From Acidobacteriota bacterium (GTDB lineage Bacteria; Actinomycetota; Acidimicrobiia; Acidimicrobiales; Microtrichaceae): a stretch of DNA of 45,400 bases. The stretch spans positions 1 to 45,400 of the forward strand of contig QEUP01000026.1 of the NCBI GenBank assembly GCA_003577145.1, in the 5' to 3' direction. The notes under the pieces were generated by a model that saw only the letters and a program-made list of their open reading frames with translations, was not told the origin of the DNA and searched no databases. The position numbers and the translations under genes were made by a program. Shown piece after piece: positions 8,874-39,402 of this stretch (position 1 is its first letter; each line of letters opens with the position of its first letter).

Positions 8874-10571
8874 ATGGACAGCCGGTACGACTTCGTGATC
8901 GTCGGCGGGGGCCACAACGGCATGACGCTCGCCGCATACCTCTCCAAGAGCGGATACAGCGTCTGCGTGCTGGAGTCACGACTCGAGATCGGCGGCGCCC
9001 AGGAGAACGCCGAACCGAGGCCCGGGTTCCGGATCGATCCCCACGCCTCGGTCCTCTACGGAGGTGCCGCACCCGGTTTCGAACAGCTCGAGCTCCACAA
9101 GTACGGGTTCCGCATGTCGTACTGGGGCCAGTACGGCTTGGCGGTGACCTCCGACAACCGGGCCTTCGTGGGCGGCAACCGCTGGACCTTCGCCGAAGCC
9201 GCCGAGACCCTGCGCCCGTTCTCGGAGAAAGACGCCGACTTGTGGGGCAGCATGATGGGCTTCATCTTCCCCCACCTCAAGGACATCCTGCGCTCGACGT
9301 TCTGGACACCGCCGTTCCCACCCGAGCTCGAGGTCGAACAGACCGACCTCCCCTGGGTCAAGACCTGGACGGAGGCTTCCGGCGGTGCGCTGCCGGGCAA
9401 CTTCTTCGACGCCTCCCTCGTCGATGTCTGCGACGAGCTCTTCGAGACCGGCGCGCTCAAGGCTGTGACCGGCCTCGGCGCCTGGTACTCGGGCGCGGCT
9501 CCGACATGGGACGGCATGGCCGCGCAGGCCTTCGGCTCGTTCCTGCTCGCCTCCTACGGATCTGGCGCCCCCAAGGGCGGCATGCACACCTATGCCCACG
9601 CGATCGCGCGTTGCGCCCTGGCGCACGGTGCCCGCGTGCTGGTCAACTGCCCCGTCGAGGAGATCATCGTCCGCGACGGCCGGGCCGCCGGGGTGATCCT
9701 CGCCGACGACGCTTCGGCAGCCGGCAAGACGATCTGGGCCGACAAGGCGGTGGTCTCGGCCGTCGACGTCCAGCAGACCTTCCAGCGCCTCGTCGGGCCC
9801 CGTCACGTCGACGCCTCGTTCCTCCAAAAGATCAAGGACATCAGCTTGAAGGGCGGCAGCCTCTATGTGCTCCATGTGGTGTGCAAGGAGTTGCCCCGCT
9901 ACGTGGGCCAGGCCCAAGAGCTCGTCGAGCAGGTCGGCTACCCGGGCTCGGTGCTGTACCCGTGTGACGACTGGGACAGCGTGGTCGCCCAGATGCGCGA
10001 TGCGTACTCCCGCAAGACCACACCGACCGGGCGCGCCTCCATGACCCTGCCGGTGCTGATGCCCACGACCTACGACCGGAGCCGGGCACCCGACGGCTAT
10101 CACGTCCTGTCACCGATATACATCGAGGTGCCGCCGCCCGAGTACCACGTGGGCGGTCCCGAGGCGGTCAACCGCCAGAAGGAGCAGATCACCGCCGAGA
10201 TGCTCGAGATGCTGCGGGCGCTGGCGCCGAACATGACCGACTCCAACATCGTCGACGTCTACGTGAACACGCCGCTGGACTCGGAGTTCCGCAACGCCGG
10301 TCTGGTCGGCGGCAACTGGTACGCCACCCGCCACTGCGAGGATCAGTGGTGGACACAGCGGCCGCTGCCCGAGCTGAGCCGTTACCGCACCCCCATCGAC
10401 AACCTCTACCTCTGCAACCAGACCTCCTTCCCCGGCGGTCTGTGCCTCATGGCGGTCCCGTACAACCTGATGCACATCCTCATCGATGACGGCCTGGTGG
10501 AGCCTGCGGACTGGTGGTACCCGTCGCCGTGGCACATAACCGACGCCGGCACCCGGATCGGAGCAAACTGA
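8874..10571 (+). CDS. COG1233 FAD-dependent oxidoreductase, class B (B2)
   Basis: A 565-aa flavoprotein; ATG at 8874 directly follows repeated GGAGGCAGGAGG. FAD motif GGGHNG is at 11-16 and VLESRLEIGGAQENAEP at 32-48. Class B markers include STFWTPPFP, IKDISLKGGSLYV, VNTPLDSEFRNAGLVGGNW, RPLPELSRYRTPI and NQTSFPGGLCLMAVPYNLMH. It is first in the long plus-strand operon and overlaps the class A gene by one base (TGATG), which implies translational coupling and near 1:1 synthesis. Family chemistry is FAD-dependent desaturation or isomerisation; the substrate is not known. Transcription should be controlled from the palindromic region at 8762-8807. Confidence 0.92.
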   Translation: MDSRYDFVIVGGGHNGMTLAAYLSKSGYSVCVLESRLEIGGAQENAEPRPGFRIDPHASVLYGGAAPGFEQLELHKYGFRMSYWGQYGLAVTSDNRAFVGGNRWTFAEAAETLRPFSEKDADLWGSMMGFIFPHLKDILRSTFWTPPFPPELEVEQTDLPWVKTWTEASGGALPGNFFDASLVDVCDELFETGALKAVTGLGAWYSGAAPTWDGMAAQAFGSFLLASYGSGAPKGGMHTYAHAIARCALAHGARVLVNCPVEEIIVRDGRAAGVILADDASAAGKTIWADKAVVSAVDVQQTFQRLVGPRHVDASFLQKIKDISLKGGSLYVLHVVCKELPRYVGQAQELVEQVGYPGSVLYPCDDWDSVVAQMRDAYSRKTTPTGRASMTLPVLMPTTYDRSRAPDGYHVLSPIYIEVPPPEYHVGGPEAVNRQKEQITAEMLEMLRALAPNMTDSNIVDVYVNTPLDSEFRNAGLVGGNWYATRHCEDQWWTQRPLPELSRYRTPIDNLYLCNQTSFPGGLCLMAVPYNLMHILIDDGLVEPADWWYPSPWHITDAGTRIGAN

Positions 10572-12235
10572 TGAGCAACCTCGACGAATACCGACCACCC
10601 GAGACATACATCACGGAATGGCCTGACAGCGCGACCTATGACGCCGCCATCATCGGTGCCGGCCCCAACGGCCTCATCACCGCGGCATACCTCGCACGAG
10701 CGGGGCTCAAGGTGTGCGTCCTCGAACGCCGCTACGAGATCGGTGGCGGGCTGGCGACCGAGGAGATCCTCTTCCCCGGCCACTACTCGAACCCCCACGC
10801 CATCTACCACATGATGGTCGACTACATGCCGCCGCTGAAGGACCTCGGTCTCGACAAGCACGGGCTGATGTTCATCCAGCCCAATGCGCAGACTGCCGGC
10901 GTCTTCTCCGACGGGACCTCGCTGCTGTTGTGCCGCATGCTCGAGGACACCAAGGACTCCATCGCCAAGTTCTCCGAGAAGGACTCCGCCACGTTCGGTC
11001 GCGTGATGCGAACGTGGCGACGAATCGTCGAGGAGCTCGTCGCCCCGGCCACCTACCTCCCACCGGTCGCCCCCATCGACCTCATCGAGGCCATGGAACG
11101 CACCGAGACCGGCCAGGCGCTCCTCGACGTGACCGAGCAGAGCCCGGTGGAGGTGATCACGGATCTCTTCGAGCACCCGAAGGTGCAGATGCTGCTGCTG
11201 TATGCGACCTGCATGTGGGGCCTCGACCCCGAAGAGACCGGGCTGGGCTTCATGATCCCGCTGCTCGTCGACCGCACGATGAACAAGGCCATGTGCTACG
11301 GAGGCTCGCACCGGCTCGCCGCGGCGCTTGCCCGCGAGGTGGTGCAGAACGGTGGATCCGTGCTCGACACAGCAGAGGTGACCAAGGTCCGCCTCGCTGA
11401 CGGCCACGTTGTCGGGATCGAGATGGAGGACGGCCGAACGATCGACGCCGGCGTCGTCTTGTCCAGCCTCGACCCCCACTCCACCTTCCTCGACCTCGTC
11501 GGCGAGGAGCATCTCGACACGAACCTGGCGCAGTCGGTCCGCAACTGGGAATGGGAGAAGTGGAGCTTTTGCACCACTCACGCCGTGCTCGGCTCGAAAC
11601 CGCACTACGCGGTCGACGACCCCTGGGTCGACGAGGCGTTCATGACCGTCGTCGGCTTCGACGACCCCGACTCGCTGCTCTCCTACTGGTCCGGCGTGCG
11701 TTCGGGTCACCTCGGCGACCGTGTCGGTGGCCACGCCACCTGTGAGACGCTCTATGACCCCACGCTCTCGAAGGTACCCGGACACGAGGTGGCCTTCTTG
11801 CAGATCCACGCCCCGTTCGACCTCGACGGAGGCGGCTGGGACGCCCGCAGCGCCGAGGTCGAGGGCCTGATCCTCGAACAGTGGAGGCGTGCCGTGCCCG
11901 ACCTCGACGTGGTGATGACCCACACCGAGACGCCTCTCGACATAGTCCGGCGGCTGCCCAACATGCGCCGGGGCTCGATCAAGCACGGGGACTACAACCC
12001 GCTGCAGATGGGGACCTTCCGCCCCAACGAAGAGTGCTCGTCGTCGCGGACGCCGATCGAGGGCCTCTACGTGTGCGGGGCATCCACCTACCCGGGCGGC
12101 CTCATCATCGGCGGTCCCGGCTACATCGCGGCCAACGCGGTTGCCGACGACATGGGCCTCGACAAGTGGTGGAGCACACCCGACTACATCGCCCGCTACC
12201 AGGCTGCCTACATGGAGGAGCCGGCCAGTGCGTAG
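10571..12235 (+). CDS. COG1233 FAD-dependent oxidoreductase, class A (A2)
   Basis: A 554-aa flavoprotein starting at ATG 10571, inside the TGA of B2. GAGPNG is at 29-34 and VLERRYEIGGGLATEE follows. VAPATYLPPVAPIDLIEAME, CMWGLDPEETGLGF, MRRGSIKHGDYNPLQMG and GLYVCGASTYPGG are shared almost word for word with A4 (35578) and more loosely with A1 (4611). A ~25-residue N-terminal extension (YRPPETYITEWPDSATYD) before the Rossmann strand is typical of class A here and could be a partner-docking segment (inference). It forms the B2-A2 pair. Confidence 0.92.
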   Translation: MSNLDEYRPPETYITEWPDSATYDAAIIGAGPNGLITAAYLARAGLKVCVLERRYEIGGGLATEEILFPGHYSNPHAIYHMMVDYMPPLKDLGLDKHGLMFIQPNAQTAGVFSDGTSLLLCRMLEDTKDSIAKFSEKDSATFGRVMRTWRRIVEELVAPATYLPPVAPIDLIEAMERTETGQALLDVTEQSPVEVITDLFEHPKVQMLLLYATCMWGLDPEETGLGFMIPLLVDRTMNKAMCYGGSHRLAAALAREVVQNGGSVLDTAEVTKVRLADGHVVGIEMEDGRTIDAGVVLSSLDPHSTFLDLVGEEHLDTNLAQSVRNWEWEKWSFCTTHAVLGSKPHYAVDDPWVDEAFMTVVGFDDPDSLLSYWSGVRSGHLGDRVGGHATCETLYDPTLSKVPGHEVAFLQIHAPFDLDGGGWDARSAEVEGLILEQWRRAVPDLDVVMTHTETPLDIVRRLPNMRRGSIKHGDYNPLQMGTFRPNEECSSSRTPIEGLYVCGASTYPGGLIIGGPGYIAANAVADDMGLDKWWSTPDYIARYQAAYMEEPASA

Positions 12236-33815: not shown

Positions 33816-35528
33816 GTGGCCACCGAGGAGACCTACGACGTCGTCATAATCGGGGCCGGTCACAACGGCACCACCACCGCGGCCTACCTGGCCAAGAGCG
33901 GCCTGAGCGTGTGCGTGCTCGAGGACCGGCCCGAGTGCGGCGGCGCCCAGGAGACCGTAGAGCCCATCGCCGGCGTGCGCATCCAGCCTCACGCCATCGC
34001 CAACTACGCAGGGTCGGCGCCGGGCTGGGAGCAGCTCGAGCTCTGGAAGTACGGCTTCCGCATGGACTGGGATCCCCGGGTCACCGTCGAGCTCGACACC
34101 GACCGCTACATATTCACCGGCGACGGGCTCTCCCAGGTCACCGAGGCCGACATGATGGGCTGGGCCAAGATCACCTGCATGCTCGCCGGCGAGGACGCCT
34201 TCCGCGACCTCATGAGGGCCACCTTCTGGTGCCCACCCCATCCCTACGGCACCGAGCTGAACGAGCACAACATCCCGTTCATGCAGGTCTACAAGGAGCG
34301 CCAGCCCGACGTGTGGACCCGCGAGCTGCTCGAGATGACCATGTTCGACCTGATGGACGAGTACCTCGACACCGAGCCCTTCAAGGTCACCCAGGCCTAC
34401 ATCGCCCTCAGCTCCGGGGCCCACGGCCACATGGAGGGAGTGGCGATCCCGGCGTTGTGCAGCTCGGCCACCGTCATGCCGCCGGCCATCGCCAAGCCGG
34501 TGGGGCCGAGGGGCAACATCCACGGCTACTACCACGCGCTGTTCCGCTGCGCGGTGGCCCACGGTGCAACCTTCCGCACCTGCTGCCCGGTCGAGGAGAT
34601 CATCATCAACCACGGCCGCGCCGCAGGTGTGCGCCTGCGCGACGACGCCACCTGGGCGGCCAAGAAGATCTGGGCCCGCAAGGCGGTGATCAGCGCGGCT
34701 CACATCAAGCCGACCTTCCTCGACCTGATCGGCCCCCGGCACCTCGACGCCGGGTTCATGCAGCGCATCAAGGACCTGAGCCTCAAGGGCGGCAGCCTGT
34801 ACATGAGCCACTACCTCACCCGCGAGGAGTTCCGCTACCGCCCCGAGTACCGCCTGCCGCCACCCAAAGACGCCTTCACCGGCGCCTTCTTCAACATGGG
34901 CTCGCGCGAGATCTACTTCAAGAACGTCGAGAACGTGCTCGGGCGGCAGGAGAACCTGACCATCTCGCCGAACGAGGCCATGTGGGGCATGGTCGCCAGC
35001 TCGCTGTACGACCCGACCAACCCGCAGTGCACCCGCCCCGACCGCGTCATCAACGGGCCCCTGTGGATGATGGTGCCGACGCCGCAGTACAACGTCGACG
35101 GCATGGACGCCATGGACAAGGAGAACGAGAAGAAGGTCTGGGACGAGTTCATGCGCCAGAGCCTCGGCTGCATCGTCGAGAACCTCGACGACGACAACCT
35201 CATCCGCATGTTCACCGACTCGCCCTACGAGCAGGAGATCCGCAACACCGGGATGCTGGGCGGGTCGTGGTACGGCATCCGTTGCGACCGCGACCAGTGG
35301 TGGAACGAACGGCCGCTACCCGAGCTGGCCCGTTACCGGGTGCCCGGCATCGACGGCCTCTACCTGGCCCACCAGTCAGCTGCCCACCCCGGCGGCCTGT
35401 GCCTCATGGCCGTGGGTTACAACCTCATGCACATCCTGATCGAGGACGAGGTCGCCGACCCCGGCGACTGGTGGTACGCCTCCCCCTGGTACATACCCGA
35501 GCAAGGCAAGCGACCCGCCAACGCCTGA
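33816..35528 (+). CDS. COG1233 FAD-dependent oxidoreductase, class B (B3)
   Basis: A 570-aa flavoprotein. GTG at 33816 has GGGGAG at a 5-nt spacer; the frame further upstream to 33744 overlaps the remnant repeat gene and looks non-coding. GAGHNG is at 13-18 and VLEDRPECGGAQETVEP follows. Class B features are present: RATFWCPPHP, IKDLSLKGGSLYMSHYL, RPLPELARYRVPG and HPGGLCLMAVGYNLMHILIE. It also has an insertion-rich region around LPPPKDAFTGAFFNMGSREI that is not in B1 or B2. It is paired with A4, 49 nt downstream, the only pair without overlap. Promoter elements in 33690-33815 are not clear. Confidence 0.92.
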   Translation: MATEETYDVVIIGAGHNGTTTAAYLAKSGLSVCVLEDRPECGGAQETVEPIAGVRIQPHAIANYAGSAPGWEQLELWKYGFRMDWDPRVTVELDTDRYIFTGDGLSQVTEADMMGWAKITCMLAGEDAFRDLMRATFWCPPHPYGTELNEHNIPFMQVYKERQPDVWTRELLEMTMFDLMDEYLDTEPFKVTQAYIALSSGAHGHMEGVAIPALCSSATVMPPAIAKPVGPRGNIHGYYHALFRCAVAHGATFRTCCPVEEIIINHGRAAGVRLRDDATWAAKKIWARKAVISAAHIKPTFLDLIGPRHLDAGFMQRIKDLSLKGGSLYMSHYLTREEFRYRPEYRLPPPKDAFTGAFFNMGSREIYFKNVENVLGRQENLTISPNEAMWGMVASSLYDPTNPQCTRPDRVINGPLWMMVPTPQYNVDGMDAMDKENEKKVWDEFMRQSLGCIVENLDDDNLIRMFTDSPYEQEIRNTGMLGGSWYGIRCDRDQWWNERPLPELARYRVPGIDGLYLAHQSAAHPGGLCLMAVGYNLMHILIEDEVADPGDWWYASPWYIPEQGKRPANA

Positions 35529-35577
35529 GCCGGCGTCACGCACACCCCCACGACGAGCAGACAAGGAGTTCAGGCAG

Positions 35578-37248
35578 ATGGTCAAGGAGCTGGTCGGACA
35601 ACCCCACCCCCAGAGCTTCTTCTCGGAGTTCCCGATCGAGAGCGAGTGGGACGTGGTGGTCATCGGCGCCGGGCCCAACGGCCTCATCACCGCCGCCTAC
35701 CTCGCCCGGGCGGGCCTCAAAGTGGCACTGGTCGAGCGCCGCTACGAGATCGGCGGGGGCCTGGCCACCGAGGAGGTCCTCTTCCCCGGCTACTACTCCA
35801 ACATCCACGCGCTCTACCACATGATGGTCGACTTCATGCCGGTGCTGGCCGACTTCGATCTCTCCAAGCACGGGCTGGTGTGGATCAAGCCCAACCTGCA
35901 GACGGCCATGACCTTCGCCGACGGCAGGTCCCTGCTACTCACCCGCATGCTCGAAGACACCGTGGACTCGATCCACAAGTTCTCCACCAACGACGCCAAG
36001 GCCTTCGGCGAGGTGATGCGCACCTGGCGCAAGGTCTCCCGTGAGATCGTTGCCCCCGCCACCTACCTGCCGCCGATGGCGCCGCTGGATCTGATCGAGG
36101 CGATGGAGCGCACCGAACTGGGCCGGGAGATGCTCGACCTGGGCGAGCGCAGCCCCCTCGACATCATCAGCGACACCTTCGAGGACGACCGCGTGCGGGC
36201 GCTGATGCTCTACGTGACCTGCATGTGGGGCCTGGACCCCCAGGAGACCGGTGTCGGGTTCTTCGTACCGCTGCTGCTCGACCGGGCCATGAACAAGTGC
36301 TACTGCCAGGGGGGCTCGCACAAGCTGGCCGCCTCGCTGGCACGCGAGGTGGTGCGCGCCGGGGGTGTGATCCTCGACGCCTCCCAGGTCGACAACATCA
36401 CCCTCCACGACGGTGCCGTAACCGGCGTGGAGTTGTGGGAGGGCCGCACGCTCAACAGCAAGGTGGTGGTCTCGAGCCTCGATCCACACTCGACCTTCCT
36501 CGACCTGGTCGGTGCCGAGAACCTGCCCGGCGACCTCAAAGACGAGGTGTCGCGCTGGGAATGGGACAAGTGGAGCTACGCCACCCTCCACGTTGCCTCC
36601 GAGGGGGCTCCCCACTACCGGGGCCGCGACCCCTGGGTCGACGAGTCGTTCATGAACATCATCGGCTTCGACAGCACCGAGCAGGTGCTGGCCCACTGGC
36701 AGGGCGTAACCTCGGGCCGGCTAGACACCGAGGTCTTCGGGGGCCACGCCACCTGCCAGACGATCTTCGACCCACACCTGAGCCGCCACCCCGGCCGGCA
36801 CGTCTCGCTCTTCCAGATCCACGCGCCCTTCGACATCGAAGGTGGCTGGGAACAACGTGGCCCCGGGCTCGAGGACGCCATGCTGGCAAGGTGGCAGCAG
36901 GCCGCACCCAACATGGCCGGTGACAACATCATCAGGACCGCCCTGGAGACACCCGAGGACATCGAGATCCGGTTGCCCAACATGCGGCGCGGCTCGATCA
37001 AGCACGGCGACTACAACCCCATCCAGCTCGGCTGCTTCCGCCCCAACCAGGACTGCTCCGGTTCGGCCACCCCGATCGACGGTCTGTACGTGAACGGGGC
37101 GTCGACCTACCCCGGCGGCCTGGTGATCGGCGGCCCGGGCTACCTGGCCGCCGGACGGGTGGCCGACGACATGGGCGTGGAGCGCTGGTGGAAGCCGACG
37201 CCGGCGATGGAGAAGTACGCCAAGACATACCTGGCCGAAGCGACCTGA
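35578..37248 (+). CDS. COG1233 FAD-dependent oxidoreductase, class A (A4)
   Basis: A 556-aa flavoprotein; ATG at 35578 with AAGGAG 9 nt upstream. GAGPNG is at 30-35, then LVERRYEIGGGLATEEVLFP. It is a very close relative of A2 (10571): VAPATYLPP, DLIEAMERTE, CMWGLDPQETGVGF, SSLDPHSTFLDLVG, MRRGSIKHGDYNPIQLG and NGASTYPGGLVIGGPGY. It has the class A N-terminal extension (about 25 residues before the Rossmann strand). It forms the B3-A4 pair and precedes the KstD-like gene by 112 bp. Confidence 0.92.
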   Translation: MVKELVGQPHPQSFFSEFPIESEWDVVVIGAGPNGLITAAYLARAGLKVALVERRYEIGGGLATEEVLFPGYYSNIHALYHMMVDFMPVLADFDLSKHGLVWIKPNLQTAMTFADGRSLLLTRMLEDTVDSIHKFSTNDAKAFGEVMRTWRKVSREIVAPATYLPPMAPLDLIEAMERTELGREMLDLGERSPLDIISDTFEDDRVRALMLYVTCMWGLDPQETGVGFFVPLLLDRAMNKCYCQGGSHKLAASLAREVVRAGGVILDASQVDNITLHDGAVTGVELWEGRTLNSKVVVSSLDPHSTFLDLVGAENLPGDLKDEVSRWEWDKWSYATLHVASEGAPHYRGRDPWVDESFMNIIGFDSTEQVLAHWQGVTSGRLDTEVFGGHATCQTIFDPHLSRHPGRHVSLFQIHAPFDIEGGWEQRGPGLEDAMLARWQQAAPNMAGDNIIRTALETPEDIEIRLPNMRRGSIKHGDYNPIQLGCFRPNQDCSGSATPIDGLYVNGASTYPGGLVIGGPGYLAAGRVADDMGVERWWKPTPAMEKYAKTYLAEAT

Positions 37249-39032: not shown

Positions 39033-39063
39033 CTACGGGCGTAGCGGTCTGCTACGCTCGTAG
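39033..39063 (+). promoter_or_regulatory. Twin palindromes and -10 of the Phd/PIN module, leaderless start
   Basis: Two 12-bp palindromes, CTACG-GG-CGTAG (39033-39044) and CTACG-CT-CGTAG (39052-39063), are 19 bp apart, about two helical turns. TACGCT (39053-39058) is a -10 candidate six bases before the antitoxin ATG at 39065, so the mRNA would be leaderless and the second palindrome would cover the -10. This is a typical cooperative autorepression layout for Phd-type antitoxins. Confidence 0.7.
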
Positions 39064-39064
39064 C

Positions 39065-39319
39065 ATGACTGAGGTGGCCTCCCGGGAACTGCGCAACCGT
39101 TCACGGGCCCTCCTGGACCGGGTCGAAGGTGGGGAGACGGTGACCATCACCGTCGACGGTCGCCCGGTGGCCCGGCTTGAGCCCGTCGGCCGGCGGCCCC
39201 GCTGGGTCTCGCGAGAGGAGTTCGTCCGCGAGATCCTGGCCCATCAAGCCGATCCCGGCCTCGCCGGTGACCTCGCTGCGCTCAGCGACGAGACGACCGA
39301 CGACCTCCCCCTCGAATGA
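39065..39319 (+). CDS. Phd/YefM-family antitoxin
   Basis: An 84-aa antitoxin: MTEVASRELRNRSRALLDRV (DNA-binding Phd N-terminus) and GETVTITVDGRPVARLEPVG. The C-terminal tail DLAALSDETTDDLPLE is the toxin-binding region. It is expected to bind the twin palindromes just upstream and the PIN toxin encoded downstream. The last 63 bases lie in the first copy of a 68-bp tandem duplication, which has separated its stop from the toxin start. Confidence 0.9.
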   Translation: MTEVASRELRNRSRALLDRVEGGETVTITVDGRPVARLEPVGRRPRWVSREEFVREILAHQADPGLAGDLAALSDETTDDLPLE

Positions 39320-39402
39320 CACAGGGCCTCGCCGGTGACCTCGCTGCGCTCAGCGACGAGACGACCGACGACCTCCCCCTCGAATGACACAGGGCCTCGC
39401 CG
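39257..39402 (+). repeat. 68-bp tandem duplication across the antitoxin/toxin junction
   Basis: Two exact copies, 39257-39324 and 39325-39392, plus the first 10 bases of a third (39393-39402). The unit contains the end of the antitoxin gene, its stop, the overlapping toxin ATG and four more bases past CAC. The identity between copies is complete as written, so the event is recent or an assembly artefact. Confidence 0.95.
39316..39387 (+). CDS. 23-codon hybrid mini-ORF bridging antitoxin and toxin
   Basis: Created by the duplication: it starts at the first copy of the toxin ATG (39316, overlapping the antitoxin stop as ATGA), reads MTQGLA, then passes into the antitoxin tail frame (GDLAALSDETTDDLPLE) and stops at 39385-39387, overlapping the real toxin ATG at 39384. 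Translation could therefore still pass from antitoxin to toxin by two stop/start couplings. The peptide carries the toxin-binding tail of the antitoxin. Whether it is made or matters is untested. Confidence 0.4.
   Translation: MTQGLAGDLAALSDETTDDLPLE

Follow-up and report, generated by a model that had tools for sequence, protein, structure and literature searches.

The window analysed here, a single stretch of 45,400 nucleotides from the draft genome of an actinobacterium, carries a two-gene toxin-antitoxin (TA) module whose junction is present twice in tandem (Table 1). The upstream gene encodes an antitoxin with an N-terminal Phd/YefM domain, which scored 33.6 bits against TIGR01552 (cut-off 20.8) and 29.1 bits against PF02604, slightly below the 29.8 cut-off of that family. 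The PIN-domain toxin scored 42.3 bits against PF01850 (cut-off 23.6) and retains D7, E38 and D96, which we take to be the catalytic acidic residues of the PIN fold and which were invariant in all six aligned toxins. The closest PDB chains were 3dbo_A for the antitoxin (4.7e-23) and 3dbo_B for the toxin (1.2e-32). PDB 3DBO is VapBC5 of M. tuberculosis (PMC10526153), so the nearest solved relatives of both proteins belong to a pair that likewise consists of a Phd-type antitoxin and a PIN toxin. The accessible text of PMC10526153 mentions no duplicated seam for VapBC5. Judged by sequence, the module is a type II TA system, VapBC with a Phd-type antitoxin, and a relative of VapBC-5; toxicity and neutralisation of the RNase are predicted.

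Two head-to-tail copies of a 68-bp unit (100% identity) span the toxin-antitoxin junction, in agreement with the exact duplication described in the first-pass annotation of this DNA. A third copy, cut short after its first 10 bp, brings the whole array to 146 bp. Given a perfect 68-bp tandem copy, chance can be ruled out as its source. Tandem Repeats Finder returned seven rows for the 45.4-kb window, of which the 68-bp array was the sole one with a period above 21 bp. The two seam ATGs (39316 and 39384) share an identical context of 59 bases upstream and 19 bases from the A onwards. Between the two genes lies a 23-codon relay ORF, which starts in a 4-nt overlap with the antitoxin stop (ATGA, 39316-39319) and stops in a 4-nt overlap with the toxin start (ATGA, 39384-39387), just as had been claimed for it.

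Table 1. Features of the duplicated toxin-antitoxin junction and of the relay found at a homologous locus (L046).
Feature	Position	Strand	Basis or content
Putative operator/promoter	39041..39064	+	Sequence, spacing, relatives; operator role presumed
Phd/YefM-type antitoxin (VapB-like), 84 aa	39065..39319	+	TIGR01552, PF02604, 3dbo_A
68-bp unit, copy 1	39257..39324	+	Antitoxin tail, ATGA seam and first 9 nt of the toxin-start frame; ATGACACAG
Relay mini-ORF, 23 codons	39316..39387	+	MTQ followed by antitoxin residues 65-84; product MTQGLAGDLAALSDETTDDLPLE
68-bp unit, copy 2	39325..39392	+	Identical to copy 1
PIN-domain toxin (VapC-like), 128 aa	39384..39770	+	PF01850, 3dbo_B
10-bp direct repeat, third occurrence	39393..39402	+	GGCCTCGCCG, also found at the head of both units (39257, 39325); candidate slippage substrate
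Relay mini-ORF of L046, 5 codons	L046:2482-2505		VNPLS; SKSP01000173.1, Ilumatobacteraceae MAG CSSed162cmA_524

Homologous junctions were collected from 61 near genomes (the window's own included), from the best 80 of 233 loci of named records, from draws of 397 order, 395 class and 396 phylum genomes (at most 30 loci each) and from 40 stretches. The resulting 218 loci included 215 with a toxin hit, of which 171 were distinct once 44 identical ones had been dropped. Leaving out 12 without a Phd ORF gave 159 distinct junctions, window included, with a Phd-like antitoxin ORF just upstream. Earlier sets held 89 distinct junctions and then 145 (155 distinct toxin loci less 10 without a Phd ORF), and the conservation and promoter counts reported below rest on the set of 145, not 159.

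Toxin starts were counted as in-frame ATG, GTG or TTG codons rather than as mapped starts. On this count, an in-frame toxin start overlapped the antitoxin gene directly in 153 of the 159 junctions, at -4 in 134 of them and at a longer overlap in 19. In four junctions 0 to 9 nt separate the two genes and there is no relay; the remaining two, the window and L046, have a relay at the seam. All 158 junctions other than the window have an in-frame toxin start at or before +12. Because so many homologous junctions show the -4 overlap, it is very probable that the two genes ancestrally overlapped at an NTGA, which bears out the proposal that antitoxin and toxin originally met in an ATGA. The lack of differences between the copies and the absence of the array from the relatives examined indicate that the duplication is probably recent, although its age is a bound and not a date; no genome of the same genus was among the 61 nearest genomes (own included).

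The second relay is of a different make. The L046 seam reads GTGA-ACCCCCTCTC-GTGA and is built on a 14-bp unit whose copies match at 12 of 14 positions (counted by eye). With just 10 nt between its antitoxin stop and its toxin start, direct coupling may be enough at this seam and the relay is perhaps unneeded. No tandem copies were detected at relatives' seams in the set of 89 junctions, with thresholds that also miss the short core of L046. At another junction, L051, approximately 28 extra nt are present at the seam and the first toxin start is an in-frame ATG at +9, a different form of seam change.

The boundaries of the array point to how it was formed. The unit opens with a 10-bp sequence that is repeated directly after copy 2, so that a one-unit state would hold a 10-bp direct repeat encoding GLA once in the antitoxin tail and once in the toxin head. 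This is also the longest repeat that tail and head share, and not one of the 44,401 other 68-mers in the window is flanked by homology of at least 10 bp. In the mechanism that we propose, the GLA-encoding repeat would have let the intervening 68 bp be copied by replication slippage or short-homology duplication. The bounding repeat fits such an event, whereas a contig or scaffold join would not predict it.

The same repeat bears on whether the array could be an assembly or library artefact, the true genome having one unit or more than two. Common short-read k-mer sizes are close to 78 bp, which is the length of the exact repeat here, and the genome is a draft in 68 contigs, so the copy number could be wrong, perhaps higher; chimeric reads may also form at the 10-bp repeat. 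By our reasoning, however, a single-unit genome would offer an assembler a repeat of 10 bp, too short for a loop in the assembly graph. The joining of contig ends would not by itself yield the flanking homology, and the window contains no ambiguous bases. We consider an artefact very unlikely.

In 365 kb of the genome (the window and 20 stretches), six other exact tandem duplications with periods of 20 to 500 were found. Their periods (21, 21, 84, 24, 39 and 30) are all multiples of 3, whereas 68 is not. A family-wide slippage hot spot was considered but not supported: the longest repeats shared by tail and head averaged 6.6 nt in 89 relatives, compared with 6.1 nt for a codon-shuffled head and 6.3 nt for other toxin stretches, and repeats of at least 10 bp occurred in one of the 89 (L061) compared with 2 of 356 control stretches. 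In 54 of the 89 (a count without a phase control) the longest such repeat kept its codon phase between tail and head, and a shorter repeat at spacing 68 was present in at least four. The mean 12-nt match at spacing 68 was 4.81 over 75 relatives, against an overall mean of 3.47; the top value (5.41) fell at spacing 32, not 68. In L061, a 12-bp direct repeat, GGTCTCGCCGAT, spans the seam at spacing 65 and in the same codon phase, which suggests a relative poised for a similar duplication. An RNA structural switch at the seam was dropped as a candidate since folding was no more stable than that of shuffles (z 0.10), and a DNA fold of a single unit together with the 10-bp repeat was likewise no more stable (z 0.51). 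Mobile copies were sought in a plasmid collection ('distant' setting) and in viral contigs, the latter with a degenerate seam pattern, and neither search gave a match; in the window's own genome there was one match.

The reading frame of the relay follows from a simple rule. For a unit of length n duplicated across an NTGA seam, the first start is in frame with the stop of the second copy exactly when n = 2 mod 3, and the relay so formed follows the antitoxin tail in that tail's native frame, which must be open. An open relay thus follows from the length class alone, and one length in three yields a relay without selection. The frame match noted earlier (68 = 3 x 22 + 2) is correct, but it needs no special explanation, as any 2 mod 3 unit suffices. 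At this locus both GLA motifs lie in the frame of their own gene, which forces n to 2 mod 3. The L046 unit belongs to the same length class. A 2 mod 3 duplication over an NTGA seam therefore creates an open relay ORF at no cost and is a route for mini-ORF birth inside operons, and the occurrence of a second, shorter relay in the same TA family hints at recurrence.

Start signals were surveyed in the window and its relatives. Upstream of the antitoxin are an inverted repeat, GTAGC/GCTAC (39041-39055), and an extended -10 element, TGC-TACGCT (39050-39058), whose last T lies 6 nt before the antitoxin ATG. Among the 145 junctions, 11 antitoxin starts were not placed; TANNNT was found 6 or 7 nt before 114 of the remaining 134 (own included), compared with 2 of 667 control windows. 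This is the geometry expected of leaderless mRNA, and the antitoxin mRNA is probably leaderless. In M. tuberculosis, 37 TA pairs have a primary start site, and 32 of these were reported to be leaderless (accessible text of PMC3898074). In 25 upstream stretches inspected (the window and homologous loci), a GTAGC/GCTAC-like inverted repeat often overlies TANNNT. The homologous Phd-PIN operons are predicted to be leaderless and self-repressed.

Shine-Dalgarno (SD)-like motifs were found before 2 of the 134 placed antitoxin starts and before 5 of the 145 starts at the seam. In the window, an SD-preceded ATG was present within the first 25 codons of 14 of 55 ORFs of at least 250 aa, compared with 0 of 55 for the internal control; these ORFs were taken from six frames and are partly spurious, and the motif sets differed slightly between the window test and the family survey (145 or 134 junctions). 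Within 45 nt upstream of the seam ATGs, that of the mini-ORF and that of the toxin, neither TANNNT nor an SD-like motif was found, and an internal promoter for the toxin was rejected on this ground. With no SD-like motif and a leaderless-looking antitoxin mRNA, the toxin probably depends on coupling to upstream translation.

How far such coupling can reach has been measured in E. coli and an archaeon, groups other than that of the host. According to the accessible text of PMC10666635, a stop-to-start gap of approximately 20 nt almost abolished reinitiation in six native gene pairs, a gap of 38 nt lowered it by 80 to 90% in two E. coli pairs and eliminated it in another, and shifts of 2 to 14 nt already lowered it in some pairs; the final 15 nt of the upstream gene were enough for reinitiation. 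The same text cites synthetic systems that reinitiate over 73 nt or more, and if that holds here the relay would matter less. The accessible text of PMC3968373 is silent on coupling. Going by the native pairs, a bare +64-nt gap would leave the toxin nearly uncoupled, and the relay instead restores two 4-nt overlaps. The relatives and the published distance data thus lend support to the earlier suggestion that coupling is kept in two steps.

In the ancestral state, a single termination-reinitiation step across ATGA would have led from antitoxin to toxin, on an mRNA that was probably leaderless and with a Shine-Dalgarno site before neither gene. Since the duplicated unit carries its own stop and start and has a length of 2 mod 3, the toxin ORF is untouched and its displaced start (+64 nt) would be bridged by the relay ORF, which has the same ATGA on either side. 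The duplication would have been tolerated because the unit brings this stop and start with it. As two reinitiations are now needed, toxin made per antitoxin is expected to drop by about one further reinitiation factor, and the relay peptide would most likely be a by-product. Building on the sequence, the layout in relatives and the absence of SD-like motifs, all of which were observed directly, we infer a recent duplication by slippage (or short homology) in a leaderless operon, which was tolerated, is served by two-step coupling and probably has lowered toxin output. We favour this explanation, in which a recent accident would have only modestly changed toxin dosage, with reasonable, though not high, confidence.

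Two other readings differ from it mainly in the effect on the cell. The relay could be so inefficient that the toxin is in effect off and the module is heading for loss. Two reinitiation steps, neither with an SD-like motif, are compatible with such attenuation, as is the sensitivity of some pairs to the small shifts cited above. Nevertheless, the toxin reading frame is intact, acidic residues included, as is the promoter-like element, and both seams are the common 4-nt overlap in identical context, which makes this outcome improbable. Alternatively, a duplication of the same origin could be neutral and transient, its relay automatic, its effect on the cell not noticeable and the array destined to be lost by slippage. 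The length class alone, one third of lengths, opens a relay; exact copies mean that there has been no time for visible selection; and 157 of the 158 other junctions have no relay, while that of L046 is different and shorter. Some change in toxin dosage is, however, expected from an extra reinitiation step, and addiction modules are sensitive to dosage. Neutrality is therefore a possibility that we take seriously but doubt.

The relay peptide spans the last predicted antitoxin helix and the acidic tail only. In the antitoxin model, this helix covers residues 64-75 and is followed by a loose tail, with pLDDT of 54 to 64 (low confidence) from residue 61 on; the predicted helix 50-60 is missing from the peptide. 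Conservation among 144 other antitoxins was 90% for L66, 85% for L70, 85% for L73, 78% for T78, 87% for D79 and 74% for D80 (141 of the 144 have a residue at the last two positions). The conserved A62 (90%) and D63 (97%) are missing from the peptide. VapB antitoxins bind VapC through their C-terminal region, and VapB5 is described in a review as two loop-joined helices engaging VapC5 (accessible text of PMC10526153). Lacking helix 50-60, the relay peptide would hold about half of the likely toxin-binding part. It may act as a toxin inhibitor or as a competitor of the antitoxin, or it may simply be degraded.

The first-pass annotation suggested a free toxin-binding peptide that changes the toxin:antitoxin ratio, a proposal not supported here. 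In such a model the 23-aa relay product would bind the toxin and alter the balance in trans, whether by serving as a mini-antidote or by competing with the antitoxin and displacing it. The presence of the conserved tail and the VapC-binding role of that region in VapB would be in keeping with it. It is hard to reconcile with the missing helix and the missing A62-D63, in a part of the model that is of low confidence, and the L046 relay, with five residues too short to bind much, has the same layout nonetheless. The minigene of axe-txe was also without effect in trans (accessible text of PMC8708949). We give a trans-acting peptide very little credence.

This axe-txe minigene is the closest precedent for the relay, as both are mini-ORFs that lie shortly upstream of the toxin start within a type II TA operon; its authors (Kedzierska and Potrykus 2021, PMC8708949) present it as the first case of this type of regulation in TA modules. 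By the accessible text, it modulates toxin translation in cis, a role that here is predicted only. It has two codons, is preceded by Shine-Dalgarno sites and lies in the txe transcript leader, and derivatives with a mini-ORF of 15 or 16 codons that stopped 5 nt short of the toxin start or shared 1 nt with it were also active. The relay described here has no SD-like motif (45 nt), and it is new with respect to axe-txe in its length of 23 codons, in its origin by tandem duplication and in its 4-nt overlaps with both neighbours. A further counterpart is L046, which shares the TA family, the relay layout and the 2 mod 3 unit and is shorter in unit (14 bp) and relay (5 codons). Termination-reinitiation at 4-nt overlaps such as ATGA seams is known from other gene pairs (PMC6728339, PMC10666635); here such seams occur at both ends of the relay, and two serial steps via a 72-nt ORF are not among the designs in the accessible texts of those papers. 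Among the literature matches listed (titles and abstract openings), no duplicated TA seam giving rise to a relay ORF was mentioned.

A natural two-step termination-reinitiation arrangement with an identical start context at each step would allow the toxin loss caused by each reinitiation to be measured cleanly. The seam might even act as a frame-safe rheostat, in which every 68-bp unit serves as a full relay cistron carrying a stop and a start, gain or loss of units by slippage spares both genes and each unit multiplies toxin translation by the reinitiation factor; we see only a slim chance of this. If true, changes in copy number would set heritable, reversible steps in toxin dosage, that is, phase variation via translational coupling rather than via frame or promoter spacing.

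Repeats of other kinds were seen elsewhere. The first 361 bp of contig C2 of the same genome (L139:1-361) hold a dense repeat array with periods of 84 and 98-99 bp, located at the contig end, which is perhaps part of a gene for a repetitive protein. In the window, four stretches that are 72-80% alike link positions 8886-12173 with 33834-37192 at a near-constant distance of approximately 25 kb, and these are likely a pair of paralogous gene blocks.
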